This document shows positions 25,815 through 54,510 of a stretch of DNA of 64,000 nucleotides, piece by piece (the first letter of the stretch is position 1; each line of letters starts with the position of its first letter). The notes under the pieces are model-generated. The model saw only the letters and a list, made by a program, of their open reading frames with translations, was not told where the DNA came from and did not search any database. The position numbers and the translations under genes were made by a program. The stretch covers positions 24,401,320 to 24,465,319 of the forward strand of contig CM067569.1 of assembly GCA_034336665.1 (NCBI GenBank), given 5' to 3'. Origin of the DNA: Luscinia megarhynchos. Taxonomy: Eukaryota > Chordata > Aves > Passeriformes > Turdidae.

Positions 25815-25847
<33 letters not shown>

Positions 25848-25857
25848 ATATATATGT
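25807..25857. repeat. (TA)n(TG)n microsatellite
   Basis: An alternating TATG/TATATATATA block runs into TGTGTGTGTGTG and back to TATATAT, about 50 bp in all. Confidence 0.9.
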
Positions 25858-28594: not shown

Positions 28595-28635
28595 TCCTCC
28601 TCTGTGTCCTCCTCTGTGTCCTCCTCTGTGTCCTC
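28595..28635. repeat. 12-bp tandem repeat (TCCTCCTCTGTG)n
   Basis: The unit TCCTCCTCTGTG is repeated about 3.5 times without mismatch. Confidence 0.9.
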
Positions 28636-32581: not shown

Positions 32582-32921
32582 GGATGACAATAAAACAAAG
32601 AAACAAGATATGCCAGCAGTTTGTGATCTCCACTGCTGCAAGGACGTGCCCATAAGAAATGGCCTTATTGGGCAGAAGCCCTCTATCAACCCCGAGAGAC
32701 TGAAGGATTTTGGTGAGGAGGATTACCTGAACGGGGATGTGAAGACCTGGGAGATGAAGATAGTGAGCCGAAATGAGGAGCTGCTTGGGGATGCCCTGCC
32801 CTGCAGCCCTCAGCCAAGCAGTAGGACCAGCCTGGCAAGCTGCAACAAGCTGATTCGGTTTGAAGACATCCGTGCAGCAGCCTTCAAAATCCAGAGTGGG
32901 GTTCAGAAAACCCCCTGCATG
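32582..32921 (+). CDS. Dehydratase-like gene, first coding exon
   Basis: An acceptor TTTGCTTTCAG precedes 32582. The first in-frame ATG after it is at 32610 ([20 protein letters not shown]). An earlier out-of-frame ATG at 32584 opens a short upstream ORF, and if the AG is not used the frame stays open back to about 32409. Coding therefore runs 32610-32921 (104 codons, ending at donor ATG|GTAAGG, phase 0). The first 85 residues have no match I recognise. The last part, [19 protein letters not shown] then KTPCM, is the standard N-terminal helix of the threonine dehydratase fold (family pattern: I..A...I...V..TPL). Confidence 0.82.
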
Positions 32922-35900
32922 GTAAGGAATCTTTATGGTTCTGCATTCTCCCAGTGTTTGTTTTCTTTTTCCTTATGAAAGTTGAATAGAAATGAAGAAA
33001 GGGCATGTGTGAATTGCAGCAGATAGATCTGTGTAAGAAGACTCACGTTCATATTAATTGTATTTAACTGTCAATAATTATTTTCTTCTTATCTGTTTAC
33101 ACTAACCTAAATCCTCAAAGATTGCAGTGACCTGTAAACAAAGGATAAACCACATTAGGCATAGACTTAATGCACTGTAGTATTATGGTCTGAGTGAAAA
33201 ACTCCTCCTGTAAGGAACCTGAGTTGGAGGTGGCAGGCTCCCAGTGTTTGGGTAAGCACTCTGTGGGAGGGCCTGGTTTGGAACCAGCCCTTGCATTTGG
33301 AGGCTTTGAAGGTACAGATTTCCCTTCTCAGTCAGGCCAGCCAGGAAGGGCTGCATGTGTTCTGTAACCAGGTGTTTCTGCCACAGGTGTCTTCAGCAAA
33401 ATAAGGATGTTAGACACACACGTGCACCTGTTGAGCAGGCTTGGTGTAGAAATGACTGAGATACCCCATCAATGTACGAGGTCTGCTAAAGCAGAAGAGA
33501 AGTACAATGGCAAGCTGTACTGTGTTCCTATACTTTTCATTTTTCTACTGTTGGGAGCTCTTCAGGCAGGCTACTCTGGGCTCTCTGGGTAATCCCTTTT
33601 CCTTTTGGTGGGTGAGAAGAATGTCTTTGCCAAATGCCAGTTCCTAGCAGCAGCCCCAAATTGCACTCTCAGTGAATCCTTGTGGATTGTTTTTCTGGCA
33701 TGCACAGGGTAAGAGCCTTGCAGTCTGCCTGGGGTTAGCAGTCCCTGGAGTGAAGTGGATCCTCAAGGTGCAGCAGTTGTTCTTGTTCCCATATGATGCC
33801 TGCTGATCCAGAGACACCATAACTGCTTCCAGGGTGGGTTTTTGAGCCTAGCATTCCCAAAATCTGGATAGCTGTGCTTTTTGTAGCACATTACTGAAGA
33901 AATGTGTCATGTGTCAAAGGACATGATACAAGACAGTTTGGGCTATAAGGTGGCACAAAAGATTTGGCTGGAATGCAGGGAAGTTTTGGCTAGGGTAGAA
34001 TTAATTTTCTTCACAGTAGCTGGTATGGGGCTGTGTTTGGGATTTATGATGAAAATATTGTTGATAGGACAGAGATGTTACTGCTGAGCAGCTCTTGCAC
34101 AGAGTCAGGGTGTTTTCTGTTCCTCACTCCATCCCATCAGTGAGAAGACTGGGGATGTACAAGGAGCTGGAGGGGACACAGCTGGAGCTGCTGGTCCCAG
34201 CTGACCAAAGGGACATCCTATACCATGTGACACTTTGCTCAGCAATAAAATTAAGGGAGAAGTTGGCTGGGGGCTTGTGGCTCAGGGCCTAGCTGGTCAT
34301 CAGATGGTTGGGGGTGAGCAATTGCTTTCAATTGCATAAGCTGTCTTTCTTGAGTCTTATTTATCTCTCTTTGTTATTTTCCTTGTAATTACATTTTTGT
34401 TTGTTTGTTTATTTATGTATGTATGTGTGTATGTATGTATTCTTACTAGCTGTTCTTATCCTAACCCATGAGATTTCTCACTTTTGCTCTTCCAATTCTG
34501 ATCTCTTCCCGAGCACAGTGTCAGGGAAATGAGCAAGTGGTAGGATGGTGTTTAGCTGCCAGCTGAGGTTAAACCATGACAGCCCTTAACACAAATGGCT
34601 CCTTTCTCCTGAGTGTCCCTGGCAGATTTATGCAATCCAGTTGTATTCCCTTTCTGCATTCACTCTTTCAAGCTAAACAGTCTCACTTTCTTTAGTCTTT
34701 TTTTTATGAACTAAGCTTTCAAATTTATCAGAACTGTGGAAAACCTATATCCATTAAAAACCCATCTATTTTAGTGTGAAAATAGCCTGTGACTGTTGTT
34801 ATTCAGTGTAATGCTCCTGCAGAAGTCATTAGTGCATTTCATGAATTGTTTCAAAAGCACAGAGTGGTGTCAAGAAAAACACAGAAAACTTTTATTTTAA
34901 CTCATCATTGAGAGGTAAGAGTCCCTTTCAAGGGCATTTGTTTAGACTAAAAAAGTGAGTGTGGCTCCTATTGAGTTAATTGAAGGGAAAAACACTTTGC
35001 AGGGTGATTCCAGATCTGCAGGTAAAAACATGGATGGAGCATCCTGGCTGCTTAGGCAAGAGTTTGCCTTGGAGCTGAGATACAGCATCATGAGTGAACT
35101 GGAACATGTCAAAGAGATAGTGGGCAAAGGAAAACGAGGAACTGGCATCAAATTGGACACCTGGTTTGGCTGCTGCTGAAGGAGCTGCAAGGGCTGTGGT
35201 GTGTTAGCTTTGTGGGTGCCAGAGGGAGGCTGTGCTGTGTGTTGTACACTAGACATGTATCTGTAGTCCTTAGATAAGATCACAGTGGCTAAAGGGAAAC
35301 CTTACAGCCTGGTTCAATGAGTCTTATGAGGTCACACATCAGGTCAGTTCAGCTGCAAATAGCACTGATGCCTGCTTTCTTGGAAGTGATTGCTGTATTT
35401 AGGCTATGTGAAAAAATCCTCAGTTAGAGGAAGACAAAAAGGATAACTCAAAGAATTAAAATCCTGAGTATCAAAATTAGAGAAAAATATCAATCTAAAG
35501 CACACCACCCCTGTGGTAAAGAGTGATTTAATGACACAGTTTTAGCAGGAGGCTTAGCAACTTGATTATTCACAGGATTAGTCTCCTTAAATCCTTTCTC
35601 TGATTGTTTGCTCTAGAATCCAAGATTCTCTATAAAAACAAGTATGGTATGTAAAGAACTAGTAGCATTGCTTTTATAGTGTTCTTGAGCTGTTTTGTGT
35701 AGGCATTCTCCATAGATTAGCATGTTTGGGATATAAACTATTATCCTATTAGTGTGCTAAGCACTTTCCATTGTATCAGTTTCTGCAGCCAGATTTGCAA
35801 AGGAGCAGCAAGTGGTTGCTCTTGTGTCAGGATTTTCAGAAGCAAAATAGAGAATCTGGCCCCACCTATAGGTGAGGAACTTAATATATGTTTGGAAATC

Positions 35901-38900
35901 CACTAAAAAGCCTTGAAACCTCCACCTGAAACATGCAGTTTAACTGTATACTTTAAAGCAAGGATCTGTTTCAGATACATTAGTTTATATATTGCATTTA
36001 ACTTATATATTAGAATATATAATGTATATTCACTTGGAAAGTCCTGCAGTCTGAAAAACATCAGTACACATCAGTATATCCACTATACATTATATGTATG
36101 GCACAGCCAGATTTGCTTGAGATAAATATTTTGTCATGCTGTTTTTGGATCTGTCTCACTTTATGATTTATCTTAAAAGAGGACTTGTTCCCCTAAATCA
36201 CCAGGGCCTCATTTGCTTTGGCAGCCAATAGAGGAGATGGAGCCAGTTCTGAAATAGAGCTGCAGTAAGCCTGGGGAGCTGGCACCCACAGGTTTGCTGC
36301 AGCTCTGTTTCACAAGTTATCTTGTGTAAAACTCTTGGTTTGGTGAATATGGTAATAGGAAATTAATATGGTGATGCATGCTAGGAGTATTTGCCATTAA
36401 AAATTTTTAAAAATCATGCACTTGGGCACTACATCACAAGTAATGTGTTTGCTAATTCCTCTCAGCTCAGGCATCTTTTCTCTTCCAAACATGTAGCTTT
36501 TCCAAACAGCTGCTGCTTACACTTACAGCCCTGGGAAATTGTTTTTTGTTATTTCCATCTTGCTTTGAGTAAGAAATCTTTACTAATATTCTACTGGCCT
36601 TAGGATGCAAAATAGGCAACACTCAGTAGTGAATTAGTGGCAGAAACCATAGCAGAGCCATAATGGGGCTCAAGGAGGTATTTTCTGATGGCTTTTGTAC
36701 CTATTAGATGATGACCTTATTTTTTGGGTATTCAATATCCAGTTCTGGCAAGTGCTGGAAGCATGGGTTTTGAGATAATTGAAAATATTTATTTTAATGC
36801 CTGTAAGAGCACTGAGCACTAAGATCCAAAGCAAGTGCTGTTTTCAGAGTTCTTAATGGCATGTGGTCCATATTTCACTGCTGTGAGTTTGAAAACCACT
36901 TCCATAAAGCAGAAGGACCTGGTAGATAACAACAACCTGTTGTGTATTTATAAAAACCAGAAGATGAATTTTAGTTTTTAGAGCTCATATATAGCAGTAG
37001 AATTCATGCCTCAACAGGCAGCTGATGGGATGTGGAAGAATTTTTTAATAGTAGGTATATTGACATAATGTTATTTATCTACTCCAGTATTCTAGGCTAT
37101 CCAAGCAGTGTGGAATGGATATCTACCTGAAGAAGGAGTTCCTCCAGTACACGGGGACTGTGAAGGAACGAGGTGTACTTCACCTCCTGATGTCATTGCC
37201 TCAGGTACAGCAAAATGTCAGCATTCAGAAAGAAGGAGGTTAGTTCTGCTTCACAAAAATGGAGCAGAGTTGAAGACAAATTTACCTCTGATCTCCATGG
37301 AATCAGTGTGTCTTGTCTTTAGAATCGCTGTACTGAATACAGCATGTGAAGAGAGAGAGGTCTGAATGTAAAATACTGCTTTATTTACAACTGGCTGATC
37401 TGCTGGTGAAATTCTTAAAAATGTTTGAAACAAAAGCTTGCAAAATGGGAACATTAGCATGTTCCTGTGGCATTAAGATGCAAATGTTTTTATGTGTACT
37501 GTAGTTCTGATATGTTGAAACCACCAAACTCGTGAGCGATGACGAAACTGAATTACAATGAGTGATGACAAGGATCTAGATCACCAATTGATTTTGTAAT
37601 GAATTTCAGTTTTCTTACATGAATAGCTTGTTTATCATTTGTCATGGGAGGTTATTGCCATTGTCGTAGGAGTAATAATTGTTATAATAGGCATGAGACA
37701 GCAGCCCAGAGCTGTGGTTATTCCTGCCTTTCGTGATAATAAAAATTCTTATAGTAATTTTTATTATATCTTCTATTAAAAGGAAGCCTGATATGGAATA
37801 ATTTCATACAGGCAGGGCAGAGGTATCAGCTCTGAGGGACCAGATAGCTCTTCTGCGATCAGCTGGAGTTTTTCAGCTCTTTCCAATGGAACAAGAATTG
37901 AACCCAGAGGAGCGCAGGCACAGGGATTGCTCTTGTGCTGCTCCAGCTTTGTGTGTAAACCCTGAGATCACACCAGACGTGCATGTACTGTACCATAACG
38001 TCCCAATCCAATCAGGGAAAGAAGGAAATGGGATCATCAGAAGGACCCAGGGCCGCGCGGCGCTGTGTGACAACCCCGCTGTTTTCCAGGAGCAGCAGAG
38101 GAAGGGGGTGATCGTGGCGGCGGACAGCGCCTTCTCCGTGGCGGTGTGCCACCAGGGCTCGGCGCTGCGGGTGCCCGTGCTGGCCGTGGCGGCGGCGGGC
38201 GCGGGCCGGGCGCGCCTGTGCCGCGAGTTCGGGGCGGCGCTGGTGCCGCACGGCGCCTCCGCCGGGGATGCTCGGCGGCACGCCCGGCGCCTGGCGCGGG
38301 ACGGCGGACACCTCTACCTGGAAGAGTAAGTGACCGCCAGGGAGCGGCTGCTGCGGGCTCGGCACCCACAGCTCGTTCCGTTAAAGTGTTGGCGCGGCCC
38401 GTCAGGGCGCTCCTCGTAGCTGGGGTATGGACAGTTGCGTGTGCCCAGGACAAATCATGTCTTTCTGGGACATCTCGGGGTGGAGACCAAAATGAAACTC
38501 TTCTCTGCCCCTAAACTAGGCAAACTGTGTGATTAGGGATTTCTATGGGCTGGTATGATTCACAGAAGCACTGAATGACTAGGCTGGAAGAGACCTTCAA
38601 GATGATCGAGTTCAACCCGTGCCCTAACACCTCAACCAAACCATGGCACCCGAGTGCCACACCCAGTCTTCTATTAAACACACCCGGGGACGGTGACTCC
38701 ACCACCTCCATGGGCAGACCATTCCAGTACTTTATCACTCTTTCCGTGAAAAGCTTTTTCCTAATTTCCAACCTAACTTTCCCTTGGCACAGCTTAAGAC
38801 TGTGTTCTCTGGTTCTATCAGAAAAGTGAAAGAGACCAACCCCACCTGACCACAACCACCTTTCAGGGAGCTTTAGAGAGTGATAAATTCACCCCTAAGT

Positions 38901-41900
38901 CTCCTTTTCTCCAGGCTGAACAACCCCAGCTCCCTCAGTTGTTCCTCACAGGGTTTGTGTTCCAAGCCCCTCACCAGGGGGCTGTAGTGATGATAGTGGC
39001 TGTAGGTTAATTCTTTAGGAACTCAGACAGAAAGCATTAAGGCTAGTGTTTCTTTCTGGTCTCTCTCTTTGAAGTTTGGTGGGTGAAATTTAATCTTTAG
39101 TGCAGAAGGTTCAGTGGGGTAATGTGGAGCAAGAGAAGGTTAATGCTCTAAGATTTTCCCTTATCTGGTGTAAGGAACAAAACTGATACTGCCTTGAAAA
39201 AAAGATTATTAAGAAGCTATTTCACACATACAGTTAAAGTAGATAAGGATGAACTATTTGAACTACTTGAGGTCACTAACAAGGCAGATCTTGAAAAAAA
39301 AAGAAACCAAACATAAGACAGGCAAAACCACTTAGAACTGATACCTTTTCCCTTTTTTCTTTTATCTGTAGCCTCTTAACGCATCGCCCCCTCCACACCC
39401 GCCCCCCCCCTTCTTCTTGCTGTTGCCTGGAAAGAAGATCCCAGAATGAGCAGAACATGGGAAGTCCTCACTTCCTTCCCATCTGGTGTATTGCCACAAA
39501 CTGTAGTGTTCAGCTCCTCTCTTAGCTCTGCCAGTGGCACACAGGGCTGGTTCGTGTGCCTGGTCTGCACCATGGGCACAGTCTTGGCCCAGACTGGGAT
39601 TTATGGTGGGGAACGAGGTGCTCTGAATCCCAAAGAATTTAAAACACTTTTAGGCTCTTTTGAAAACCAAAGCTTTTCCTAACCTTGTGATTTCCAAATT
39701 TCTGTCAGCCATTTTTCAATTGATGTGTTGACTTCCAGCTGGCTTAGATCAACTATCACGTTCACACATAAGAACTAAATTACTTTATTGTAATTTGATG
39801 TTTAATCATCCCCTCCTCCCTAAGTAATGATTTAAGTTACACAAGGTGGATATTTTTCAGGTTCATGATGCTCCAGGGGCAATGCATGTGTAGAACTTCA
39901 GCATCCAAAGCTGAAGAGCTCTAAATGTACACACTACCACTAATAATGCTAAAGTACCCTGATTTATTTCAGGTTTTGGGTTGTTCAGTCTGTGACTATG
40001 TTTAATTAAAACCTCACAAATGCAATATTTCACTGGGGAAAAAAAAAAAGGAAGACTCCCCCACTTCGATTGTGAGCCTTTTTGTAATGGGATATCTGAA
40101 AAATATTTTGTTAGGTGTAGAGCTGGAGAGATTTCCCAGTGTAATGTATGCCTTTATGGATAGCCAGTCTTCTCCATCTGGGTCTGACACACATTCTTCT
40201 CACTTGCCAAAGCTGTTTGTAAAATACCAGCTGATCTCCCAAGTGTTAGAATGGAACTTCTGAAATGTCCTTTTATTGCAGTTTGGTTCTAGCTTGGATA
40301 CAATCCCTAGCAATTTGGTCTCTCCCCAGCCAGTAATTCATTCTGAAGCCCTTCCTGAAGTAGACACTACGTGACTGGGTTTGGCTGTACCTGCAGGGGC
40401 GATGCCCTGCAGCTGGGTGTGTCATTGTCAGCTCTTCCCATTGCTTGAAATGGCTTGATTTTAATTGCTTGAATGCAATTAAAATACTGTGTCATGAAAA
40501 TGACCGTGTAAGAATTCAAATAGATGAAGGACACTTTTTACCCAGTTGCAACTTCCTGGGAAATCCCAGGAAGGAAATGTGATTTTTCAAATTGGAATTT
40601 AGTCATTTAGCCTGCCTAATTGCTACCTAGGTGCCATGAAATTTTTGCTAACTATAGGGCCTCAGGACCTCATTATAAATGCAATGTGACTATTGCCAAT
40701 AACGAACTCAGTACCCCTGTGAGGATGTGAGAAAGATTCCTTAGTGAATCAGGGAGGAAAGAGTGCTGCAGGTTGAATTGCACACCTTCCTTCCTTGAGT
40801 GCCCATTTTTTCTTGTGTAACTCCACATCTAAATGCTGTTCAAACCTGATCATTTGTGATCTGTTATTCTATCCAACAGACTCTGAGCCCTTTACTTGGA
40901 ACAGATAGGAGCAGAGCCTTATAGCTGGCACACCAAAACTTCACTGGAAAACTAAAGCCTGAAGCCCATCTTTGATGCATCACACATTTCAGAGGGCAAA
41001 TATCCAAGTTTCTAGCTCTGGCTCAAAAATGCTTGTATCAGACTACAGTCTTTAGATTTATCTGCCCTGTTCCTTCATTTTGCCTCAATGGCACATGATA
41101 CTCAGAGATATGATTGCTTTCAAAAAGCAAAAGTTATCAGTCACAATGCAAAGAAAATCACACATTTTATTATAAAAGCTCATGAATCAGTGAACTGGTG
41201 TTTTAACTGAATGTTAGCAAGGAAAACATGATGATTTGAAGCATTGATCAAATTGCTAACAGCTCTCCATGCCCAGAGCAGTCTCATTTGGACAGCTTTC
41301 AGTGTTAGAGAGGCTTTATTGCTTCACTGAATATCCCAAGCTCTTATTCATTTTTGGAGGTCCCCATGTAATTATGGCAGGGGTAGCTCCACAAACTCAG
41401 ATCTGAATCTGATTTGGAAATAAATCTCCAGAATTGTTCAGGAGGCCAGTGATGTATTTTGTCACATATAAAGAAGGAGGAGAGAGCTCCTTCCATATCT
41501 TGATAAAGATAGTAAATACAAGGATTCAGTTACTCATTCCACTATGATTTCTTGCCTTTGTCTTTGGCTATGCTACAGGACCAGAAGTTTATTAATTCTA
41601 TCCTGTCTTATGTGGTTATATAGACCCTTGCCCTGAGGAGTTTTCTGTGTCTTGATATATATGTGAGTAACTTCTCAAGGGCCTTGGTCTCCTCCTTGCA
41701 GGAATTCTGTGCCTCTATGCTGAGCCTCTCTGTGCCTGTCTCACAGTAATAAAAACAGTTTCCTAGTACCCAAACATCCCCGAGTAAAGTAAATCAAGTA
41801 CAGTCATTGGATCTATAATTCTATTTGCCAGAAAAAGCAGAATGTGCAGAGAGCTCATATTTTTTCTTATATATAGTTCTACATTTACGTCATTGCTAAC

Positions 41901-44900
41901 TTGTAAATAAAATGCAAATCAGCTTTTAGAAATAGATCCAAGTCAGTCATGTGACTGTATAGTGGAGTTTTCTTCAATTTTTAGATGCTCCTTGTCCCTA
42001 TCCTTTATATTACATTTGCCTGAAAGTATTTTACCAGTGAATATTTTGGCATGACTAAATGCTTTGCTTAATGCAAAAGTGTCAGATATTGGCTCTGGAC
42101 TGTGGAAAGACAACTCTAGCAATCTGTTCAGTATTTGTGAGGTTGAACACACTTCTTAAATCTCACAAAAATTTCCATTCATCACAAACACTAAATCCAC
42201 TGATAAGTAAAGAGGGGATTTATTTTTGAGGTTTTCATCATAGTTTGGTCTGGAGCATTCAAAATTTATGAAGCTGAAGGAAGTGACGGCAATGGAAACA
42301 TGAGTTCTCCCTGCCAGTTCTGTGAACACCTGATAACAAAGGGGATTAAATGCTCTTCAGTCTGAAGACTCTTTGAGGGGCTTGTCTACAGCACAAGTTT
42401 TGTGCCAGTGGGCAGAATCATGCTGTGGTCCACCTGATGGCACCGTCCCGTGCATCACCCCATGTGCTGCTGATTTACTCACATTTATCTCTTTCTGCTG
42501 AACAATGCCTTGAAAACAGTAGGCTGAATTATTACTGCACTAGCAACTGTGACCTCTGAGGGCTGACCTGTGTCCTTCCTTCCCCCAGGGAGGACAGTGC
42601 TGTGTACCTGGCAGGCCTGGGCACCGTGGGGCTGGAGATGTACGAGCAGGTGCCCAAGCTGGACGCCGTGGTTCTCCCTGCAGGAGGCCACTGTGGCTTG
42701 CTGGCAGGGGCAGCTGCTGCACTCAAACACCTCAACCCACATATTTCTGTAATTGTAAGTTGCCTTTCACCTATTAAGCACTGCATTTGGGTGGCTTTCA
42801 CCACGGCTGTTTACAAAAGACATTGGTATCTAGTGACACTTGCACAGACTGCCTGTGCTGGGGACAGGAACTATCCCATCCCATGGGCTCTGCCTCAGAG
42901 AAGACCCTGTGAGAACCTGGGAAGTTCCTGTCCCTTGGCTGTTTGGCTGGATTTAAGAGAAAAGTGTGGAAAAACTTTTCCTAAGCAAATCAAATCCAGT
43001 TCCCTGTTTTGAAATAATTTCTTAGTGAAAAAATTTGGTCCTAGTGGTAGCTCGCTTGTTTTGCAACTTGAAATTAGTTGTTAATTTGAAGAGGAACTTT
43101 TTGTAGGTTTTGTTTTCTACTTTGGTGGCAACTTCTGTTACAACTGGTTTCATAAAAAAGTGACAACATTTCTCTTCCTCAGGGAGTTGAATCTGAAAGT
43201 TTCCCAGTATTGCAACAGTCCTTAAAAGCTGGCCACCCTACTGAGGACCAGGCCTGCAATAATCATCATTTCTATGGAGGTGAGAAAATGCAGTATTCTT
43301 TGGGAGGTAAAATAAAGGTTGTAACAGATTTCTCCTTCTGGATTATTTTCTTATTATTTCAATTCAAACATATTTTCAGGGAGTTCTTGAGAGTCAGAAT
43401 TTAGTTCAACCTGTAAGAGCAACTTCTGCCACATTTCCCCCCCACGCTGATAGGGTAAAATGCTATTTCCAGTGCACATGAATACTTAGAAATATGAGAG
43501 CATTTGTCTGAACACTGTGCTCAAAAGCAGCTTCTAAACCATCTAAATCTAAGCAGCATCTAAGTCAATGGGAGAGCTCTAGTGTAAAAGACTAATTTGG
43601 GAACAGGTAGGAAAATGATGCAGTGCTTAAATTTTTAGACACAAAACTGTTCTCAGAACAAAAGTGTTTACAAATGGTACAGTTATTTCCATATCATTTA
43701 CTCAAAAAACCTCAACTGTTGAGCAATTTAAGAACATCCTGTTTGCCTGATATTGAAATTTCTGGAAGTTTTGGATTAAATGGGATTTTAGTAAGAAAAT
43801 TCTAATTTCTCTTGGTTGGCTCTGCCTGTGTTGCACCCTTAGCCAGCTGTCCTGCTGGAGATAACCAGCCCAGTGCTGTGCTTGGGTCTCCTGTCCTTCC
43901 ATCCTCTCTGAGCAGTGAACAGCACTGGGCTGCAGGGTCACTCTCACACTGCAACAGTGCCAGTGAAGTATCAGGAGTTTCTTGAAGGGGTCCAAAATGG
44001 CAAAATCTTCTTGTGAGATTTGATCTTTTGTTACCAAACACATCTCTGTTGCATGAAAAAACCTGAGAAACTTGAGGTCATGTAACAGCAGTGTGCTGCA
44101 CTCATTAAGGGCACAAACCAGCCAGGACTCTAAAAAATGTTGAATATGTCTGAAGCAGCCAACTTCATATTTTTGTCTTTTGAAATCTGCAGATGTGAGT
44201 GGAGTTTGCTTTGGCAGCAATTCCTTGCAGCTGACTGGGAAGCTTGTGGATAAAGTTGTTGCTGTGAGGTAGGTGAAGAAAAACAGTGAAATGAGTAATA
44301 CTGGATGGGTGTTGTTGCACATGAAAAGTGTGCTCTACCAGCAGGGTATGGTGGGCCTGCATGTGCAGTGCAGAGCAGGTTGGCAGGAGTTACCATCATG
44401 CAGAGACTGGGGCAGAGTGGGAATGGGGTGCCTTTCCTTCCAAGAGAGGCACTGAAGACTTTGAACCCAAACCCACATACAACAGAATTACAGAATATCT
44501 CAAACTGGAAGAGATTCATGAAGGATTATCAAGCCCAACTCCCAGCTCCTCACAGGACTGTCTAAAGCTAAGTGATATGACTAAAAGTGTTCTCCAAACT
44601 GACCCTTTGGCCAAAACTTCACCTGCCACCACTACCTGGCCTTGCTCTGGGTGCAAAACTTGTCCTTGTGTTCTACAGCACTTGAAGGCAGCCCTTGACA
44701 AACCTCTTCAAAATCTTCACAAAAAGTCCACATTTGTGGAATATACTTACTACTAGGATTTAGGTAATATTTCTAGTTAAAAAGCCATCCTGTCTTTCAC
44801 TTATCAATGAATCTGAGGTGCATGTTCACCCCCAGCATCACAGCATTCTGTAACACCACTTTGGGGTCATGTCTCTCTGGGTGGATGGCAGGAACCCAGT

Positions 44901-47900
44901 TACACATAAATGTGTTGTCTTCTGCTTTGGGGAGCTCATTTGATTGGTTGTGACCCAGGTCTCTTGCTTTCAGGGAGGAGGACATCCTCATCTCCATGCT
45001 GAGGCTGCTGGAGTACGAGCGAGCCACGGTTGATGCAGAAGGGGCCATTGCCCTTGCAGCACTGCTGGCAGGGAAGCTGCCTGAGCTGAAGGGTAAAAGG
45101 TACACAGCTATTGCAAACAGGGAACTGTGGCAAAAACGTGGGACTGAGCTCCTTGGTCCTAGGAAATGGTGAAAATCTGCTTGTTCTGCGGGTGACAAGG
45201 CAGTTCCTGCCCCTGAACTGGCAAGGGGCTCATCGGTGGCAGAAACTTCAGACTGACTAAACCAGTCACAGGTGGTAAGGTTGTGTTGAACCAGACAAAT
45301 GCCAGCCTGGAGACCTGACAAATCCTGTCCCCTTTCCTTGATTCTCAGATATTTGAGGGAAAGGCAGTTACAGCTCCATGAGGCATCATCACACCTGCCA
45401 GGACAGGGTCCTGCCCTGGTCAGCCCGTTGTCTCCTCTGGCTCCCCTTGTGAATCCAGCCCTGTCTGTGGTGGGACAGGAGCTGCTGCAGTGACCCAGTG
45501 GCTCCTGCCCCCTGAGAACCATCCACACAGAGGGATTATCCTTGTGCTTAGTGCTGAACGTGTGCTAAGTGCTGCCTTGCCTCTCAGCTTGAGGACTCAG
45601 CACTTAAGTGGATTGAGCCTTTGCTCAGGTCATGGTCCAGAATGTATTTAAACATACTTGTCCTCAAGACAAAGTAAAACTTCCAGTGCACAGCATTGTG
45701 CACTAAAATACTGCTGAGGCAATTCTTCAGAAGAGGCTGACAGTGCACACAGAGCAGCAACACATTTCAGAACAGCTAAAATAAAAGGGAAAATGCAAAG
45801 GTTTGGTCTCAAAGAGGTTAGGTTTGACTCTGCAGAGAGATTTTCACAGACTAATCACGTGGCTCTTCACTTGCACTTCAAACATTTCTGCACTCATTTT
45901 TTGGGGTTGTGATGAATTTGATAAATGGTTACAGAAAGCCTTGAAAACACACATTGTCTGATCAGTAAGAGGCTGAAACTTAGAACTTCCAGGGCAGAAT
46001 TATGTCAAATTTTTAAAACTTGAAACCTAGACCTAATTATCTCTAACAAAACTCAAATCTCCAGCAAATGCAAAATGAAAACAACATTTCAGACCAATTA
46101 ATGCAGGCAACTTCTAGGCCTCCCCTACCTGCTCACAAAGGATACTGAGAGGCAGGAGCCCTCTGACATGCAATACTTATTGAGGGGAGACCTTAGGCTG
46201 ATATTGAAACAGTGTTTATGATTTATGGCTCCTTTATACTAATCAAAACTCCTATTTTTCTGTCTGTTTTCAGAGTGGCAGTTGTTGTATGCAGTGGAAA
46301 CCTGGAATTACCTTTGCTGCAGCAGTGCATATCTCGTGCCCTGACCCTGGATAACAGAGTGTGCAGATTTTCCCTTGTGATTTCTGACTGCCCAGGAGAC
46401 ATGTCAAAGCTACTGGAGATTTTGGCTAGGGAAGAAGCAAGGTAAATCAAACTAATAGTTGGGAAAATATAATCACAGACTAGCACAAAGATTATTCAAG
46501 ACTGGGAAATGTTTCCAAACATCTCTGAAGCGAAGTCTGTAAGTAATTAATTCATCAATTTCTTTTTTCTTGTTACAGTGCAGAAAAGTTTTTATTTCCT
46601 TCATTTTTATTCCAATCTGAAAGCACCTTTGTAGCATAGAATTGTGTCTAATTCAGAAAGAAGGAAAGACATTTACTCTCCAAGCACTTACAGAAACTGT
46701 TTTGCAGTGACAGGGGATTGTTGTGATCTCTAATTTGTCCCTTATTTGATGCAGAGTTTTGGATATCAAACAAGAACGCACATTTGTGACATCTGAGCTC
46801 TTCACTGTTGAGGTAAGATGAGGTGCAATTTCAGTTTCTCTGATAGTACTGGCCTCCCCTGGTTTATTCTGTTTTCCTGTCTCTTATGCCTGTGTTGAAG
46901 TCCAACAGAGATTGTCAGAGATTATTTCCTCTGTTATACAGCTTGCCAGACACTTAGCAGGCATATAAATAACACAGGACCAGTCTGACCTGCTGTTGCA
47001 ACAGGCTGGTGCAGTGCCCCAGGTCTGCCTTGCACTGCTGCTGGTGTGAGCCCTCCTGGCTGTGGCAGGGAGCTGGAGGAGGTGAGCAAGCTGCAGCTTC
47101 CATCCAGAACCTGAAGAGCCAGCTGAGTAGGCTGGCTGTAATTGTCTGACCTGCTTGCCTTAAAGCAATGTAGAGAACACCTTTACTCTTAAGGAATCCT
47201 TGTTTTTAACTAGAGACTCAGGATTGTTTCTTATCCACAATGGCACAGAGGAAAGCCATTATTCCTTTGTCAAGTATTGGATGCAGAAACAGCAAGAGGT
47301 GTTAGCAGCTGATGGTGTCTCTCAAAAGGACCATTTGTCTCATGGGGTATCTCTTATTTCCACTGGTTTGGCAAAGGTGTGGTCCTACTGATTTCATGTG
47401 TCCAGGTCCAACCTGACTTAGTTTGAGAAACCTCACGAGGAAGTCAAATTAGAGATCTTTGCTAAACAGGCTCATAATTGGGGTGCAGAAATGTTACTGG
47501 GTAAGCAAGTTCTTTCATTTTGGCCTTTAAATTTAATTTCCCACCTGGATGCAAAAGCCTGTTCTATATTTTTCACTTGCAGATATAAAGAAGAGGTAGA
47601 TTAAAGATCACTATAGTACATGATATCATCAATACTCTCAAGCATCTAGGACTTAACCCACATTGTTCTGCAGTGTGCCATGATGATAGGCCAGCTCACA
47701 GCTCTGGGTGATTTGGAGATAGCACAACACTCACTGCAACAGGTGGATGAATCCCTCTGAGTGACTAACTTAGCTCTGGAAACACTTTTCACTGAAGGCT
47801 AGATTCAAAAAACTTCTAACTCTTACAAAGTTTTCAAAGCCATTTTTATGGAGTTAAGCTTGTAGGTTTTATTGTTAAGTAAATTAAAAAATAAATCTTC

Positions 47901-50900
47901 TGTCTTAGGTGGGGTTTTTTTGGTTTTTGTTTTGGTGGTTTTTGTTTATTTTTAGTTTTTAGTAAAAACAGGCCCTGAATGAAAAACAATGCCATGTGCT
48001 ATTCTCTGCACTTTAAACACAATGTGTTTTCACTGACTGTCCACTTCAAGAATCTGACAGTGTGGTACTACAAAAAGGTTGAAGGAAGGAATTTGCATCC
48101 CTGTGTAATTTAATTGGATATTGGATTTGCATGATGGCTTTCAATCAGTCTGGGAGAGGCTATTGGATAATTAGATGTGAAGTACAAAGTAGTGACCCAG
48201 ACATACAGACCTCTGCAGGCAGCTCTGTCTGGTGACATCTAGTGAATTGTGAAGCTGTCTTTGAAAATTAAAACTCAGGTAACCAAAAAGGGTAAAATGT
48301 AGCGTTTATTTGTAAGCATCAAAATGAATTTGCTCAATCCAGGTGCAAGAAAAAATACATATTTTCATAGTAAAGCTAATATCTGTGAGGGATGTTTTGG
48401 TTTTTTCTTTGTTGTTCCTAAGAGCCAAAGACTTGTGTCACCAAAATATGTTAAGCATTTTTTATGTAAATCACAGCATATAAAATAAGGCATAAATTTA
48501 AACCTAGACTAAGAACCAAAATTACCACTTTGTGTTGTACTGGTGGTAATGACAAGAAAGTCATTCAGACTTTAGTTTTTATTTTTGTCTGTGGATATAG
48601 ATTAGGTGTTTGACAGAACACAGCAGTGAGCACAGATGCTGATTTGAAACACTAAACCTGTCCTTGTCAAGATTATTGCCTCAGTATTTAATCATCCTTT
48701 TAGATTTAGCCTTTTATTTCTAAGGGGAAACTTCTAGTCACTTATCAGGGTGATAGAGCTGCTTTGGTGGTTTTTTCATTCTAGTGAAATGTCTTTCTGG
48801 GTTAGTGTTTGTTCATCTAGTGCACACTTGGAACAAACACTCTGTGGGAAGATCCTTACTGATAGTCCGATTTCATGAATAAGTGAGGACTTTCTAAAAT
48901 GAAATTTTATGTTCAAACTACTTCTGGGGAAAAAAGAAATTTTGGAATATTTTACTGGCAAAAATAAGATTTTTTTTTTTTTACTAAAAAATAAGGAAGG
49001 AATATGTCTATATTAGAGTGAGAATTGCCTTGTGCAGAGGGATCAGCTGCTTGTGTTCATTGGAATATTATGGGAGTTTCTTCAGGATTCTACCTGCTCA
49101 TACCTCCAGTTTAGATTCTCTTCCCTTGTGATTCATTCTGGATCTCTTCCTCACAAAAGGACTACACCCTAATTCACTCTGACCTGGCTGGTTAGGGAAC
49201 TACTTCCAAAGTCCCTATATTGAAATAGAAAACTCTTAGCAAGTCAGGCAAATAACCAGTCTGGTAGGCTTCACATTTTACAGCTATTGAAGGAGGTTAG
49301 ATGGGAATATCTAGACATTGAAAAGATCAGAGCTAATGAAAAAATTCATCTGATATGACCAGTTAACTGGATAGAGAAACCTAAAGGACTACCCAGTTCA
49401 AGGAGGGAAGCTACAACTTGCTTCTGTGAACTCTCTCGTTCTCCATCAGTGATATTCCTCAGATTCTATTGGGACAATTTATCACTTAAATTGCTTCCAT
49501 CTGCAAAACCCCTTTAAAACCATTTAAGTCCCTTCAATTTCATACTACTATTGGCTCAGAGAGAAGTCAATGAGCAAAATCAATAAACAGTTTAATAAAG
49601 GAAGGACATTCTTTGCTATGAAGTAGATTAGCACCTTGCCTGCTTAGTAAGTGTCTAATTTTTGGATTCAGGCAACCTAGTTGAAAAAAAGAATAATTAT
49701 TCAAGCTCATCAATTTTCTAGAAAAGTCTTCTCACCACTGAAACTACAGCACAGTCACACTGGCAGGTCCAGGAGGGCTCTGTAAGCTCTTGAATTGCCC
49801 CAGCAGCTTTTCAGTGGGTGGTTTTGCACTGCAGTGGTGGCAGTGCTCCCTCTGAGCTCACTCCTCTCTGACATTATGGGTTGTGTGGTCTGTTCAGACT
49901 CTGGGGAGCTTCACTGTGCTGTGGTTTTGAAGAGCTTGGAAGAGACCAGCTGTAAAAAGAGCATCGGCCGCACTACTTCTCCCTCTGGTCTGTGCATGAA
50001 AATGCTAAAGCATAAATCAAATATTTCCTTTTCAGTAACATGACACGTTCTCCCAGTGGTGCTGGAATTCCTGGCTTTGTGTGGTAATGCCTTTTTTTCT
50101 CATACAGTTTATTCACCTCAGGCCAGAACTCAATAAATTATTTTAGTCTGCTCTGGTCAATTCGAATAAATTTGTTAGGGCCAACTTGCATTTTGTAAAG
50201 GCTGGAAGGGAATATTTTGGATTAGAGTCTCCAGTTGCCAACATATGCCCTGTTATTGCCCTATGAAGGGAGTACCTAGGAGCAGTCAGGTGTACAGCTA
50301 AGAGGTGCAGGAGGATGCTATCATTCCCAAAGTATTTCCTGCATGACCTGGGCAAGGCTCTGTTTCCATGTTCCACTCCCCAGCTGCAAAGTGGAGACAC
50401 TGGGAGTGGGAGCTTCAACACTCCATTCCTTCTGAGGCCCTCCAGAAGAATGTGGTCGTGTTCTTTAATGGCATTGCACTGAGCCTGGCCCTGGGAGGGT
50501 CTGAGTGTTCTGCTGGATTAGTGTCTGCCTTATGTAATGTGGCTGTAGCTTGTTCCTGCCCGTGCCCACCCACCTGCACCAATTGCCAAAAGATAAGGAA
50601 GGGCTCGGGTTGCACAACCAGCTGACAGCTGCTGCACTCTTCTCAAGCATTCCACTGCTCTGACCTTGGGGACAATCTGGCAGCTGATCCCCAAACCATC
50701 AACTGAGCTGCTGTTACCAAACAAGCTGTAATGTGAAGTAATCTACACACTGGGTGTTTACCAAATAATTTTAAAAATTGCCCAGTTGTTGATTTTTTAA
50801 AAAGAAACCCCGTTTTCTAAATATAGAACTGTAACCAGTGTATAGAAATAAAATTTTCACTCTTAACTCCAGTGACTTTCATGCTAACAAACCTATAATG

Positions 50901-53900
50901 TTGCTAAACTTGTGTATCATGAATACTAAGTTATGCAAATCCACCAGCAGCAGCTTAAGATGATGAATATGGTTTCTAGAATTAAAGAAGCAGGATACAA
51001 AGGTTCAATGGATGATTCACAGACATGAAGAACTGCACTAGTTACTTAGGATGAGCTTTACATGGAGCCTGGAAAAGCACAAAAGACTGAAGTCTCTTCA
51101 TTCAGCAGTACTACTCAATTTCCTCTGCTCTCTGACATTGACTCAGCATTCCACCCACTGTTTTTATTTGCACACGCAGCCTACAGATAGTAGGCATGAA
51201 GGAGCTGAGAGGCATGCCAAACTAATTTTTAAATTCTATGAAAATATGACCTAAAAGGCAAAGTGCCTCCATAATAAGAACTTGCAGTTGAAAGGGAGTA
51301 CAGGTGCCTACCCTATTCTCCACAGAACATTGCAAATTTCTTCTTTTTGTGAAGTTATGGAATTTCCTGTCTTTGAAATCAATGTAATTCCTAAGAGTAT
51401 TTGGATTTATGCATCTGGGTTTTGGTGTTGCACAGCAATAACTTGTAATCAGTTTTTTCCTTTAATTATTATTTTTTAGCCTTTGTTCTGCTTCCTCAAT
51501 TATTTCCAGTCATTAAATAAAACCCACAAGCCATCAATATTCAGTGAAATCTCTTCTGCCTTTAATTATTGTAGGCCTGCTCTGGAAAAAACTTACTGAC
51601 TAAACCCTTTGGCTGAAATGTATCTTTATATTACCTGTCACGGGGAATGGAACTTTAAATGCAGCAAAAGATCCACCTGGCTGGTCATTTTAATGTCTTT
51701 CTGGACCAGACAACTATTTATTTACTAATTAATTAATTTAATCCAGCAAAGATATGATATGTAGGAGAGAAATTAATGAAATGCACTTCTGTTGTTGATG
51801 GGTTTGTGGGGTTTTTGATACACAGAAAAGAAAGGTGTGCTGTGCACAGCTGGCCCTGCAGACAATGAAAGCTCTGCAGGTTCAAAAATCCCATGTACAG
51901 TTCTGAGGGCTTATCAATATGAAATAAGTTTAAAGTAAATTTTTCTCTACTCATCATAAACTACCTTGTCAGGTGTACAAGAAAGATCAGGCAAGAGGTT
52001 CTGTCATTTATTCCTAAATAAGACCATTTTGGGGCACTTGCTCTTAGGTCATGGATAGCTGTAACCTGCTATAGCAAGTGGTACTGGGGTGCTTCTGCAT
52101 CCCACACAAAATATAACCTCATAAACCTCCCCATGAATGTCAGGGCTGCTCTGTTGGACCTGTGTAAATTATGTGTCCCAGGTGGAGCAAGCAAGAGAGC
52201 AGTTTGTGAAAGTAAAACTGCAGTGTAAATTGGCTTAATCAAAGCAAGAAAGTAAATTCTTGCCTTCCCTGCTGCTATCTCGTAACTGCCCTGAAGTGTT
52301 GTGTGATTCTCTCTTCACTCCTGCTGACCAAATGCTCTCTATTCCTCTCTTTGACAACTGTGAAAAATCAGGTGAATTTCTGGAGTTGTTCATTATCACT
52401 GCTATTGCTGCTACTGCTTTTATGATACACTACAGCAGAATATCTCCCATATCAGCTGCTGGCTGTGCTGCATGCTTAGCACAAAATGACAGTGTTTATC
52501 CAAACTGTTCACAAGCTCTCTCCAGTCTAGTGAGGTCTGCCTGGTTTCCATCATGAGCAGAAAGGAAAGGGCAGAGAGGATAATTAGCCATAAATCAAAA
52601 TGCTTCCCTGTGCTTGCTCCCAGGGCAGAGCAGCAGCTTGCTGCCAGACATTCAGGGCTGAATCTGCCACATCCAGACTGGTTCCAGGAGCAGCAATTGA
52701 TTTCTTAAGGACAAAACATGCACAATTACTATGGAAGAGGGAAAAATCTTGCTTTTTTTAATTACAGACTCCATGTGAGATGTGTGTCCCCTTGAAGATA
52801 TGGCTGCAAAGCTTTAGGGATTTTGTATGAACCAGGGAATGGATAATGGGTGTTTGGTACATTGGCACTCTCAGATACTTTTCCCAATCATTGTGTTCTC
52901 TCCCCTTTCCTCATTATTGCTTGCCCTCGATGACTGTCCTTCTCTTGAGATTAAATCCCACTTTTTTGAAGAAGAAAGAAATTAGCATCTAATTTGCATT
53001 CCAAAGAACCAAACAAATAGAACTATGTGCAGCACAAGAGGCAAAGAATTACAAGACCAGATCAGAACTGTGGCTTATTTCATGATGGATATTTGAGAAG
53101 CTGTAGCCAGTTTTCTAACTAAGTGAGCTACAGCTATTTAGATTAACTTGGAGTGTTAGTGTTTTATATTTTCATTCAACAGTTTTGCTAAAGGTTTATT
53201 GTTATTTTAAGACAGTTTCAGAAAACATGAATTGGAAGTTCTTATTTAGAAGTGTCCTTGTAAACAAATTAGAGTATTTTTTGCCTTGTTGCTTTCCAGA
53301 AGGGATGCAGCTCTGGCAGGAACATTTTGACAGGGCATGTCTGGAGCAGCCCACCATCAGGTTATCACAGCTCATTGTTTCTCTGCTTTCTGTAGATTTG
53401 CCTGTTTCAATGAACTCTCTGTAGCTGCACCATGACTCGTCTTGGGCCCTTTCCTTGCTAGATTTCCATGTTTCTGTGAGGTTTTTTTCCATGTGGCACT
53501 TTCAACACCAGTGATAATTCCAGCAGGACTAGCAGAAATGGAAGTTAGTGGTCTCAAATGGTGAAGTATAATTTTCCCTCTGCACCTTTACATTGGTGCC
53601 TCATCCTTGCTAGTGCCCAGGCTTTCAAGTGATGGGGCAGAGATGTGAATATGCAAAAAAGAGAGATTACAGAAAAATTGAAAAGATGCCATTGGAGTTA
53701 TTATCTTTAGTGGCTACATGACAGGATTTCAAAAGTACCTGTGGAGGCAAGTGAAGAATTCAAAAAAACTATCAGGATTAGTTTTGCCAAGTTGTTTTAT
53801 TTAGAAGCAGAACAACCACAAAAGAAAACTAGAAGTGATGCAATAAGCAAACAAAAACCAGAATGAAGTGAGAAGGTGTGTGAGAAGTGAAACCAGCCAA

Positions 53901-54510
53901 TATACTGCAGAGATAACAAAGAGCTGGGGGATAACTCCATGACAGACAAGAGAAGGAGAATATAAAAAGCTCGAAGAATGGAGGTACTGGAACAAACACT
54001 TGCTGGAAATATGGAAATGTGGTGAGGTAGGAGTCAGAGGTGGGTGAGGTGGCAGCAATGCCACGTACATACCCCAGGGAACGGAAAAGAGAAGCTGCTA
54101 ATTTGTCTTCAGGGAGGCCAAGAGCAGGGAAGTTCTTTGCCCAGGAGCCAGCAAAGGATCAGCCTGACTTATTTAAACTTTGAAGGCAATAAAGAAGGTT
54201 TTTGGAAGGTTTTATGGTTATGCAGATGGGCTGGAAGAGCCCCAGATATCTGCAATGTCAGTTTTCTTACCTGCACAGAGAGCGGATGTGAGCGCCAGAG
54301 TTTTTATTTTGAACTGATTGTTTTTATGAGTGTGTTTTAGGTTTAAGTTGGAAATGACTTTGTCTGAGATTGCTGCCATGCCATCAGGAATGGTCCTAAT
54401 TCTTTTCCCAGGTCATCTGCACGGTGGAGACCAGAGACAAGATCCACACAGCCCAGCTGAGGAACGCGCTCTTGGAGCGCTACCCCAGGACGGCGTGGAC
54501 GGAGCGGTGA
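32610..54510 (+). CDS. Threonine/serine dehydratase-like protein with ACT-like domain (10 coding exons, 484 aa)
   Basis: This is the whole-gene entry. Coding segments are 32610-32921, 37088-37204, 38090-38325, 42589-42754, 43183-43279, 44193-44268, 44974-45099, 46274-46441, 46755-46812 and 54412-54510. They total 1455 nt and keep phase at every junction, all GT-AG. The product aligns without large gaps to biodegradative threonine ammonia-lyase (TdcB type). Residues 1-85 are a unique extension, about 86-390 the fold-type II PLP domain and about 395-484 an ACT-like regulatory domain. The Schiff-base lysine is Lys130 (GTVKERG). The asparagine loop, SAGNHAQ in TdcB, is ADSAFSV at 154-160, and the glycine loop is GGHCG at 254-258 instead of GGGG. 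In family members these loops hold the PLP and substrate carboxylate and the cofactor phosphate, so dehydratase activity is doubtful. Cys383-Ser-Gly-Asn fits the SGGN/CGGN motif near the PLP ring nitrogen. The gene is divergent from PLAC9 and convergent with TMEM254. A cytosolic location is likely, since no signal peptide is seen. Confidence 0.88.
33984..34581 (+). mobile_element. Solo LTR, avian ERVL type
   Basis: The segment contains landmarks of a common bird ERVL-class LTR that I recognise: AATTTTCTTCACAGTAGCTG near the 5' end, GACCAAAGGGACATCCTATA and CCATGTGACACTTTGCTCAG before AATAAAATTAAGG in the middle, then ACCCATGAGATTTCTCAC and a terminal GGTTAAACCATGACA. About 600 bp are present with no internal retroviral genes, so it is a solo LTR. 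Divergence from the pattern I know is substantial, so it is old. It lies in the sense direction in intron 1, and its AATAAA could act as a cryptic polyadenylation site. Confidence 0.8.
34395..34441. repeat. (TGTT)n/(TATG)n microsatellite inside the LTR
   Basis: TTTGTTTGTTTG changes to TTTATTTATGTATGTATG and TGTGTATGTATGTATT. It looks like expansion in the U5 part of the ERVL LTR. Confidence 0.8.
37088..37204 (+). CDS. Dehydratase-like gene, coding exon 2 (PLP lysine)
   Basis: From acceptor TACTCCAG to donor CCTCAG|GTACAG, 117 nt, phase 0 at both ends, residues 105-143. It encodes [20 protein letters not shown] then [19 protein letters not shown]. This is the family segment that reads L-[KR]-x-E-x-L-Q-x-x-G-S-F-K-x-R-G-A in active enzymes. 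The lysine that forms the internal aldimine (Lys130) and the following Arg-Gly are conserved. The S-F before it is changed to T-V. Confidence 0.9.
37205..38089 (+). other. Intron 2 of the dehydratase-like gene
   Basis: A 0.9 kb intron. The frame of exon 3 stays open for about 200 nt upstream of the exon 3 acceptor, but a good polypyrimidine-AG (GCTGTTTTCCAG) and the family alignment place the boundary at 38090. No repeats are recognised. Confidence 0.7.
38090..38325 (+). CDS. Dehydratase-like gene, coding exon 3 (degenerate asparagine loop; very GC-rich)
   Basis: From acceptor GTTTTCCAG to donor GAAGA|GTAAGTG, 236 nt, phase 0 in and phase 2 out, residues 144-222. The start, [20 protein letters not shown], aligns gap-free with TdcB [20 protein letters not shown], so the invariant S-x-G-N-H is replaced by A-D-S-A-F. 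The remainder has the expected alternating strands and helices ([36 protein letters not shown]). The exon is extremely GC- and CpG-rich compared with the other exons, with many Ala, Arg and Gly codons ending in G or C. Confidence 0.85.
38326..42588 (+). other. Intron 3 of the dehydratase-like gene (4.3 kb)
   Basis: This begins with the tail of the GC-rich island (to about 38420), then a minus-oriented CR1 3' end (38568-38980), then AT-rich unique-looking sequence with no exon. A C-rich run (CCCGCCCCCCCCC) lies near 39400. Confidence 0.7.
38568..38980 (-). mobile_element. CR1 LINE 3' end, minus orientation
   Basis: Read on the plus strand it shows the reversed CR1 tail pattern: AGGCTGGAAGAGACCTTCAAG-type sequence, CCATTCCAGTACTTTATCAC, GAAAAGCTTTTTCCTAATTT, and TTTTCTCCAGGCTGAACAAC with CCCAGCTCCCTCAG toward the right end. 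This is the most abundant bird LINE. It is a 5'-truncated copy of about 410 bp, moderately diverged, in intron 3. Confidence 0.9.
42589..42754 (+). CDS. Dehydratase-like gene, coding exon 4 (altered glycine loop)
   Basis: From acceptor TTCCCCCAG to donor GTAATT|GTAAGT, 166 nt, phase 2 in, phase 0 out, residues 222-277. It encodes [20 protein letters not shown], then [20 protein letters not shown] and [15 protein letters not shown]. It corresponds to family VIAGQGT-x-[GA]-LEI...DAVIVPxGGGGLIAG. The tetraglycine that binds the PLP phosphate is changed to GGHCG, one residue longer, and the Q of AGQGT is L. Confidence 0.9.
42755..43182 (+). other. Intron 4 of the dehydratase-like gene
   Basis: A 0.43 kb intron with donor GTAAGTTG and acceptor CTCTTCCTCAG. 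Nothing else is recognised in it. Confidence 0.75.
43183..43279 (+). CDS. Dehydratase-like gene, coding exon 5
   Basis: 97 nt, acceptor TTCCTCAG, donor TATGGAG|GTGAGA, phase 0 in and phase 1 out, residues 278-310. It encodes [20 protein letters not shown], then [12 protein letters not shown]. It matches the family segment IIGVEPE...S...AGxP that follows the central strand of the large PLP domain. Confidence 0.88.
43280..44192 (+). other. Intron 5 of the dehydratase-like gene
   Basis: A 0.9 kb intron with donor GTGAGAAA and acceptor GAAATCTGCAG. A long antisense frame crosses it without features of a gene. Confidence 0.7.
44193..44268 (+). CDS. Dehydratase-like gene, coding exon 6
   Basis: 76 nt, acceptor GAAATCTGCAG, donor GCTGTGAG|GTAGGTG, phase 1 in and phase 2 out, residues 310-335. 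It encodes [20 protein letters not shown] then KVVAVR. This corresponds to the family DG(I/C)(D/A)V...G..T......VDD(I/V)V.V segment, with the usual DG start altered. Confidence 0.85.
44269..44973 (+). other. Intron 6 of the dehydratase-like gene
   Basis: A 0.7 kb intron that holds an old, minus-oriented CR1 fragment (44485-44715). Nothing else is recognised. Confidence 0.7.
44485..44715 (-). mobile_element. Old CR1 LINE 3' fragment, minus orientation
   Basis: The plus strand carries ACAGAATTACAGAATATCTC, CTGGAAGAGATTCATGAAGG, ATTATCAAGCCCAACTCC and CTCCTCACAGGACTGTC. This is a diverged version of the antisense CR1 tail (an AGAATCA...GAATC start, then AAGGATCATCGAGTCCAACT, then GCACAGGACA). 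The right boundary is uncertain. Confidence 0.65.
44974..45099 (+). CDS. Dehydratase-like gene, coding exon 7
   Basis: 126 nt, acceptor CTTGCTTTCAG, donor GTAAAAG|GTACAC, phase 2 in and out, residues 335-377. It encodes [20 protein letters not shown], then [20 protein letters not shown]. It matches the family pattern DEI...M..L......VEGAGA..LAALL.GK almost residue for residue. The motif VEGAGA is shifted to VDAEGA, which changes the usual Glu position. Confidence 0.92.
45100..46273 (+). other. Intron 7 of the dehydratase-like gene
   Basis: A 1.2 kb intron with acceptor TCTGTTTTCAG. No repeat or exon is recognised. Confidence 0.7.
46274..46441 (+). CDS. Dehydratase-like gene, coding exon 8 (end of PLP domain, start of ACT-like domain)
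   Basis: 168 nt, donor GCAAG|GTAAAT, phase 2 in and out, residues 377-433. [20 protein letters not shown] closes the PLP domain. CSGN replaces the LSGGN/CGGN motif and keeps a Cys/Ser and Asn around the ring-nitrogen contact. [28 protein letters not shown] then begins the ACT fold. Its loop [12 protein letters not shown] matches the DRPG.L..LL pattern of ACT domains attached to catabolic threonine ammonia-lyases. Confidence 0.9.
46755..46812 (+). CDS. Dehydratase-like gene, coding exon 9
   Basis: 58 nt, acceptor TTTGATGCAG, donor GTTGAG|GTAAGA, phase 2 in and phase 0 out, residues 433-452. It encodes [19 protein letters not shown], matching the ACT segment reading V.DI.H.R.........V. in TdcB-ACT proteins. 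The intron before it (46442-46754) is short and featureless. Confidence 0.85.
46813..54411 (+). other. Intron 9 of the dehydratase-like gene (7.6 kb)
   Basis: This is the longest intron of the gene. I found only short ORFs on either strand, none with recognisable family motifs, and no clear LINE or LTR. The region is AT-rich with poly-T tracts near 47915 and 48970. Confidence 0.65.
54412..54510 (+). CDS. Dehydratase-like gene, last coding exon
   Basis: 99 nt from acceptor TTCTTTTCCCAG to TGA. It encodes [20 protein letters not shown], then [12 protein letters not shown] and stop, residues 453-484. It is the final strand and helix of the ACT-like domain (family pattern V.....ETR...H...L...L...GY). 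Despite 7.6 kb of intron, the phase (0) and the homology fit exactly. Confidence 0.88.
   Translation, partial: VICTVETRDKIHTAQLRNALLERYPRTAWTER

Follow-up and report, generated by a model that had tools for sequence, protein, structure and literature searches.

The described systems closest to the gene considered here are the ACT-bearing threonine ammonia-lyases of the TdcB type, for which the curated models TIGR01127 and NF005600 exist, and human serine racemase (SRR). The gene itself lies in a stretch of 64,000 nucleotides from Luscinia megarhynchos (assembly GCA_034336665.1, contig CM067569.1, positions 24,401,320 to 24,465,319), referred to below as the window, and an earlier note made from the sequence alone had read it as a threonine-dehydratase-like gene with broken catalytic loops. 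Like the ammonia-lyases, it has the fold-type II PALP fold of enzymes that use pyridoxal 5'-phosphate (PLP), the Schiff-base lysine, and a C-terminal module; unlike them, it lacks the SxGNH, GGGG, GQGT, and VEGAGA motifs, scores below both curated cut-offs (250.9 bits versus 378.75 for TIGR01127; 257.9 versus 496 for NF005600), and has an N-terminal extension with an alternative predicted membrane anchor. With SRR it shares the same fold, and SRR Ser84 aligns with Asp155 of the window protein (a correspondence for which we partly presume the SRR loop numbering); unlike SRR, it is altered at the equivalents of Phe55, Gly85, His87, Gln89, and the tetraglycine loop, and it has an ACT-like module.

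Several of these positions have assigned roles. The excerpted text of PMC6424897 gives Ser84 of SRR as the proposed re-face base and reports that the S84D variant loses racemisation and prefers L-serine elimination over L-THA by 50:1; according to the same excerpt, in serine racemase as in serine dehydratase the Phe preceding the lysine stacks on the ring, and a Cys binds the pyridine nitrogen in human serine dehydratase. Literature searches found no functional characterisation of the vertebrate family to which the window gene belongs, and the excerpt of a catfish study names the gene in a table only (PMC11010891). The family is annotated already, and the single-event reading of its altered loops is here replaced by a two-layer history: an ancient remodelling and a recent overwrite toward guanine and cytosine (GC).

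The PLP pocket across vertebrates

The pocket is rebuilt, not simply broken, and comparison of protein sequences (none of them from lamprey, hagfish, or amphioxus) indicates that it was rewritten before jawed vertebrates diversified. Orthologues were found from sharks to birds, in agreement with the conserved open frame proposed earlier. The first vertebrate set comprised 135 proteins, several isoforms of one species included and the window protein standing outside it. Lys130, reported as kept in the GTVKERG motif of the window, is indeed retained, being present in 133/133 vertebrate proteins that have that residue; one teleost protein of a later set (P0147) has no lysine motif, perhaps through a gene-model error. 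Cys383, the pyridine-nitrogen cysteine, is kept in 130 of 134 proteins, Asp155 occurs in 133 of 134, and Phe158 in all 134. The Phe before the lysine has become Val in 129 of 133.

Both loops had been described as lost, a claim that holds for the glycine loop and for the neighbours of the loop asparagine, which are altered in the vertebrate proteins listed, but not for the asparagine itself (Asn157 is kept in 123/134 vertebrate proteins), and that mixes two separate events. The window protein lacks the canonical S-x-G-N-H asparagine loop: it has ADSAF (within ADSAFSV, residues 154-160, as first read), and the commonest vertebrate form is SDSNFS, with SDNNFS in sharks, TDSNFA in frogs, and TDCNFS in many teleosts. 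The glycine loop, GGHCG at residues 254-258 of the window protein and in most of the first vertebrate set, is altered, as had been noticed, but is no plain swap for GGGG, being one residue longer. It also varies by lineage: sharks have GGECN and close variants; rays have GGERH, GGERL, or GGQRH; many lizards have GAHCG; and teleosts have AGQYG in many cases and GGQCG, GGECG, or GGHCG in others. A change private to this bird is thus ruled out, the loop being altered in the vertebrates listed. Three snake proteins (P0101, P0161, and P0173) carry PAGTPSG or PAGIPSG at the glycine loop, followed by LLASNS.

Invertebrate relatives have the canonical state. In Batillaria (P0162), Anabrus (P0166), and Ridgeia (P0167), as well as in relatives without a name, the motifs are SAGNHA, GQGT, VEGAGA, and GGG-G (GGG-S in Anabrus); vertebrates have GLGT and VDAEGA-like motifs, the VDAEGA of the window standing at residues 354-359 as originally given. 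The rewritten sites are, accordingly, Phe to Val before the lysine, SAGNH to SDSNF, GQGT to GLGT, GGGG to the longer GGHCG type, and VEGAGA to VDAEGA. Aligning orthologues had been suggested as a check against local error, and this distribution, with canonical motifs in invertebrate relatives and the altered state running across the vertebrates listed, argues that there is none.

For a column-by-column view, 26 canonical proteins were used, most of them without a name; they derive from 247-residue query pieces and are proteins of ~136 to 432 residues. In these proteins, 74 columns are at least 90% conserved; at 31 of them the canonical residue also occurs in at least 90% of 41 vertebrates, whereas the remaining 43 fall short of this. 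New residues are fixed at Ala155→Asp, His158→Phe, Val176→Ile, Gln232→Leu, and Gly384→Ser (each in 41/41 vertebrates) and nearly so at Ala134→Val, Ala308→Tyr, and Glu355→Asp (each in 40/41). A tree of 43 proteins, rooted by choice on P0182, places the vertebrates in one clade (support, 98) with a stem of 0.825 substitutions per site, and joins them with seven canonical relatives (the three named invertebrates and four unnamed proteins) with support of 100. By these sequence comparisons, the gene is the vertebrate one most closely related to the ACT-bearing invertebrate threonine ammonia-lyase.

Because the new pocket residues were then frozen (Asp155, Phe158, and Leu232 in every one of the 41 vertebrates), the pattern has the look of a changed function rather than of mere decay. 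Variability of the glycine loop, together with the replacement of Phe by Val beside the lysine, argues that any bound PLP is held in another way. Efficient threonine deamination has likely been lost, and the protein may be a pseudoenzyme or a sensor, as the earlier note proposed.

Retention of the lysine and the pyridine-nitrogen cysteine, together with the elimination of L-serine by S84D serine racemase (PMC6424897), leaves catalysis possible and makes serine chemistry the main alternative. Under it, the protein would be an active PLP enzyme of changed substrate range, a dedicated eliminase of L-serine or a related compound acting via Asp155, and backbone amides of its longer glycine loop would continue to bind the phosphate. 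The freezing of several altered pocket residues suits such an enzyme, as does the strong preference of the S84D variant for L-serine; less easily accommodated are the replacement of the ring-stacking Phe by Val, a glycine loop that differs by lineage (GGECN, GGERH, AGQYG, and GIPSG), and the loss of Asn157 in several lineages. We regard this alternative as plausible, while leaning against it.

Exon 3 in flycatcher-family birds

The second layer is confined to exon 3. As the best explanation of its composition and substitutions we infer GC-biased gene conversion at a putative hotspot of recombination nearby. The window and Harpia proteins are identical at 39 of 78 residues of this exon, versus 76 of 80 between Harpia and the turtle Natator and 87 to 96% for the other nine exons of window and Harpia. 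Exon 3 departs from a passerine consensus at 37 of 78 residues, compared with 16 of 332 across the remainder of the core. With ancestral codons taken as those nearest to the window codons, from the consensus of seven passerines and Harpia, the minimal base steps in exon 3 are 37 from AT to GC, 1 from GC to AT, and 11 neutral. This 37:1 split (P = 2.8e-10, or 1.4e-9 against a composition-based share of 0.53) is the local excess expected of a conversion tract; changes outside exon 3 are few and also GC-leaning (9.5 to 1 in the core).

Exon 3 has a GC content of 0.79, rising to 0.95 at third positions (silent sites being judged by this present composition), and a CpG observed-to-expected ratio of 1.06, against a flanking GC content of 0.44. 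The GC peak spans ~450 bases, that is, exon 3 plus the adjoining ends of both introns. Just downstream of it, at 38570-38960, is a repeat that by its motif resembles the end of a CR1 retrotransposon. Exon 10 also has a high third-position GC content (0.91), without marked protein change (29/32 residues identical between window and Harpia).

The closest protein among the matches listed is that of Oenanthe melanoleuca (92% identity), followed by other birds that we place, together with the window, in one family, the flycatcher family. Each search listed up to 120 proteins, each representing a 90% cluster behind which thrushes could sit, and restriction to the flycatcher family holds among the proteins listed. 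The same GC shift of exon 3 occurs in four other family members, with Asn157 replaced by Thr in Oenanthe and Erithacus, by Ser in Cercotrichas, and by Ala in Ficedula (exon 3 of the latter is short in the database protein, at 57 residues, perhaps an annotation gap). Its presence in these four proteins, along with the intact splice sites, rules out a sequencing or model error. On a bird tree whose topology was fixed beforehand, the family stem measures 0.432 in exon 3 versus 0.014 in the rest (~30-fold); summed branch lengths are 0.703 versus 0.096 inside the family and 1.024 versus 0.973 for all non-family branches.

Asn157 is also replaced elsewhere (by Ser in ostrich, Varanus, Pleurodeles, and some teleosts; by Asp in three rays; and by His in Callorhinchus), and its loss in the window is mainly lineage specific. 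A milder shift of exon 3, with the Asn kept, is seen in Sylvia, Zosterops, and Cyanoderma. Warbler-like songbirds (P0034, P0065, and P0010) show a milder GC-ward shift of exon 3; given these birds, GC drive on the exon may be older or recurrent.

Two other processes could rewrite an exon in this manner. In the first, the gene is on its way to a pseudogene in the flycatcher family, with exon 3 under relaxed constraint: among sites at least 90% conserved elsewhere, 22 of 45 in exon 3 differ in one or more of five family proteins, and the window tip outside exon 3 is rather long (0.031; most other passerines, 0.003 to 0.028). Decay of this kind is nonetheless very improbable, as only 9 of 171 such sites have changed outside the exon (P = 4e-11), frame, splice sites, and stop codon are intact, and the changes are strongly GC biased and nonrandom. 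In the second, positive selection reshaped exon 3 in these birds, which would fit very fast amino acid change in a single exon with the frame kept; we consider it unlikely, if less so than decay, since the 37:1 direction, the GC-rich third positions, and the extension of the GC peak into both introns are unexpected from selection on the protein alone.

Both the process favoured here and its outcome have precedents. In the excerpted text of PMC4878770, GC-biased gene conversion was measured in a pedigree of the collared flycatcher, a bird of the same family as the window's, with a bias of 0.18 for G or C alleles in noncrossovers and a clustering of crossovers at promoters and CpG islands; those data are genome-wide, and the window locus lies outside the passages concerned. 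In the sand rat, the excerpt of PMC6573468 describes Pdx1 as a conserved gene rewritten with GC enrichment; there, as here, a long-conserved coding sequence was altered in one lineage and the gene kept, whereas the present case concerns birds and a single exon in a gene with an enzyme fold, with the ~450-base GC peak described above.

Gene model, isoforms, and fold

The ten coding exons, joined in phase into 484 residues, stand as first described: all nine introns are GT-AG, and nine orthologous proteins match the window exon by exon (tblastn), so that neither the gene model nor its odd loops are due to chance. The gene start had to be revised. The ATG at 32610, taken as the first, is internal, and the starts lie further 5', in alternative first exons that had been missed; with a cassette exon, these occupy 24416-29537. 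Two alternative first exons, with or without a 27-base cassette, give isoforms of 527, 536, 538, or 547 residues (Table 1). Exon 1a lacks the hydrophobic stretch of exon 1b, whose best Kyte-Doolittle window is 2.42, which forms a helix (residues 25-45) in the predicted model of the Harpia orthologue, and a counterpart of which occurs in 56 of 112 vertebrate proteins examined. An equivalent of the cassette, SYAEQLFLKK, was found in proteins of other birds.

Table 1. Exons of the gene and the associated GC peak, in window coordinates
Feature	Position	Strand	Basis
Exon 1a, alternative first coding exon (MNFAAQFIYF...FWQ)	24416..24516	+	tblastn of P0001, P0013, P0018; sequence, donor
Exon 1b, alternative first coding exon with predicted membrane-spanning stretch AALVGVLLRLVVYLVAVLY	24575..24708	+	tblastn, sequence, splicing
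27-base cassette exon (SCAEQLFLK)	29511..29537	+	Weak tblastn match (E, 1.6-2.2); in-frame splice
Extended exon 1, holding the 32610 ATG	32582..32921	+	Splicing, tblastn
Exon 2; Lys130 codon at 37163-37165	37088..37204	+	Spliced model
Exon 3; asparagine loop ADSAFSV at 38120-38140	38090..38325	+	Spliced model, composition, comparison with orthologues
GC peak enclosing exon 3, rich in CpG, with a maximum of 0.86 GC per 100 bases	38000..38450	.	Composition scan
Exon 4; glycine loop GGHCG at 42683-42697	42589..42754	+	Spliced model, alignment
Exon 5	43183..43279	+	Spliced model
Exon 6	44193..44268	+	Spliced model
Exon 7; VDAEGA at 45029-45046	44974..45099	+	Spliced model, alignment
Exon 8; VCSGN, where the PLP fold ends, then start of ACT-like module	46274..46441	+	Spliced model, predicted structure
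Exon 9, ACT-like module	46755..46812	+	Spliced model, tblastn
Exon 10, end of ACT-like module and stop	54412..54510	+	Spliced model, tblastn

The PLP-enzyme fold is predicted to be retained: PF00291 (fold-type II PLP enzymes) matches at 183.7 bits against a cut-off of 35, and predicted models of orthologues match TdcB, that of P0037 superimposing on TdcB chain 2gn1_B with a TM-score of 0.94 and a root-mean-square deviation of 1.7. The TIGR01127 alignment extends over the C-terminal module to residue 474. In P0037, the predicted order of strands and helices there (E463-471, H474-486, E490-498, E507-515, H519-532, E537-539) fits the beta-alpha-beta-beta-alpha-beta arrangement of an ACT domain.

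The dipper orthologue P0002, searched against the window bird's own 1.09-Gb genome, placed all 10 of its matches at this locus in a search that scored only the best candidates; a single copy was found, and a decaying duplicate beside an intact copy is rejected within that scope. Elsewhere in the window, a minisatellite (18936-19626) consists of 13.7 copies of a 52-base unit, and the minus-strand open reading frames that cross it, the longest having 430 residues, look spurious. No Rfam family was found in the window at gathering thresholds.

Discussion

The account toward which we incline, with a little more confidence than doubt, joins an ancient rewriting of the pocket, GC conversion of exon 3, and a changed ligand at Lys130 relayed via the ACT-like module. 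Lys130 would form an adduct, either with PLP held differently or with another carbonyl or amino-acid ligand; the module would sense or report the ligand of the changed pocket; and the exon-1b isoform would sit at the membrane via its predicted anchor. The overwrite of exon 3 would also account for the loss of the loop Asn and, in the window protein, of the Ser with which that loop begins. That exon 3 was overwritten while the rest stayed constant suggests that the protein can do without the old catalytic Asn of the small domain in its present role, in the flycatcher family at any rate. A bolder version, offered tentatively and with more doubt than conviction, is that an ACT-bearing threonine ammonia-lyase became a membrane-tethered ligand sensor with a frozen new pocket, conversion in the flycatcher family then serving as a natural mutagenesis that shows the old Asn and about half of the conserved residues of exon 3 to be dispensable. 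CYSL-1, which belongs to a family of PLP enzymes but acts in signalling in nematodes, is an analogy that we keep as a thought and not as evidence.

Several observations weigh against this account. The retained lysine and cysteine are, as set out above, compatible with catalysis. Pfam ACT models reach their cut-offs in none of six vertebrate and neither of two invertebrate proteins tested, the best vertebrate scores being 14.2 (P0037) and 14.5 (P0001) bits for ACT_6 against a cut-off of 23, with none in the other four vertebrates. The length of the window branch may reflect slight relaxation outside exon 3. Finally, a PF00291 search of the bird's genome gave nine matches, two at this locus and seven on three other contigs, and the latter possibly leave room for a canonical paralogue.

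Monotremes carry the protein (P0098 and P0120); no therian mammal is named among the matches listed in three sets of 120, which hints at a loss of the gene in therians. Database names for the family (L-threonine ammonia-lyase-like, putative threonine dehydratase, L-serine deaminase, and serine racemase-like) have apparently been applied by transfer. If the pocket chemistry is gone, such names would mislead pathway models of birds, reptiles, amphibians, and fish. In the flycatcher family, an active-site exon conserved over long times seems to owe its rewriting to transmission bias, not to selection acting on the protein, in a gene that is still alive. The case could be used to ask how much change GC drive can impose on a protein and whether a need for the pocket persists.

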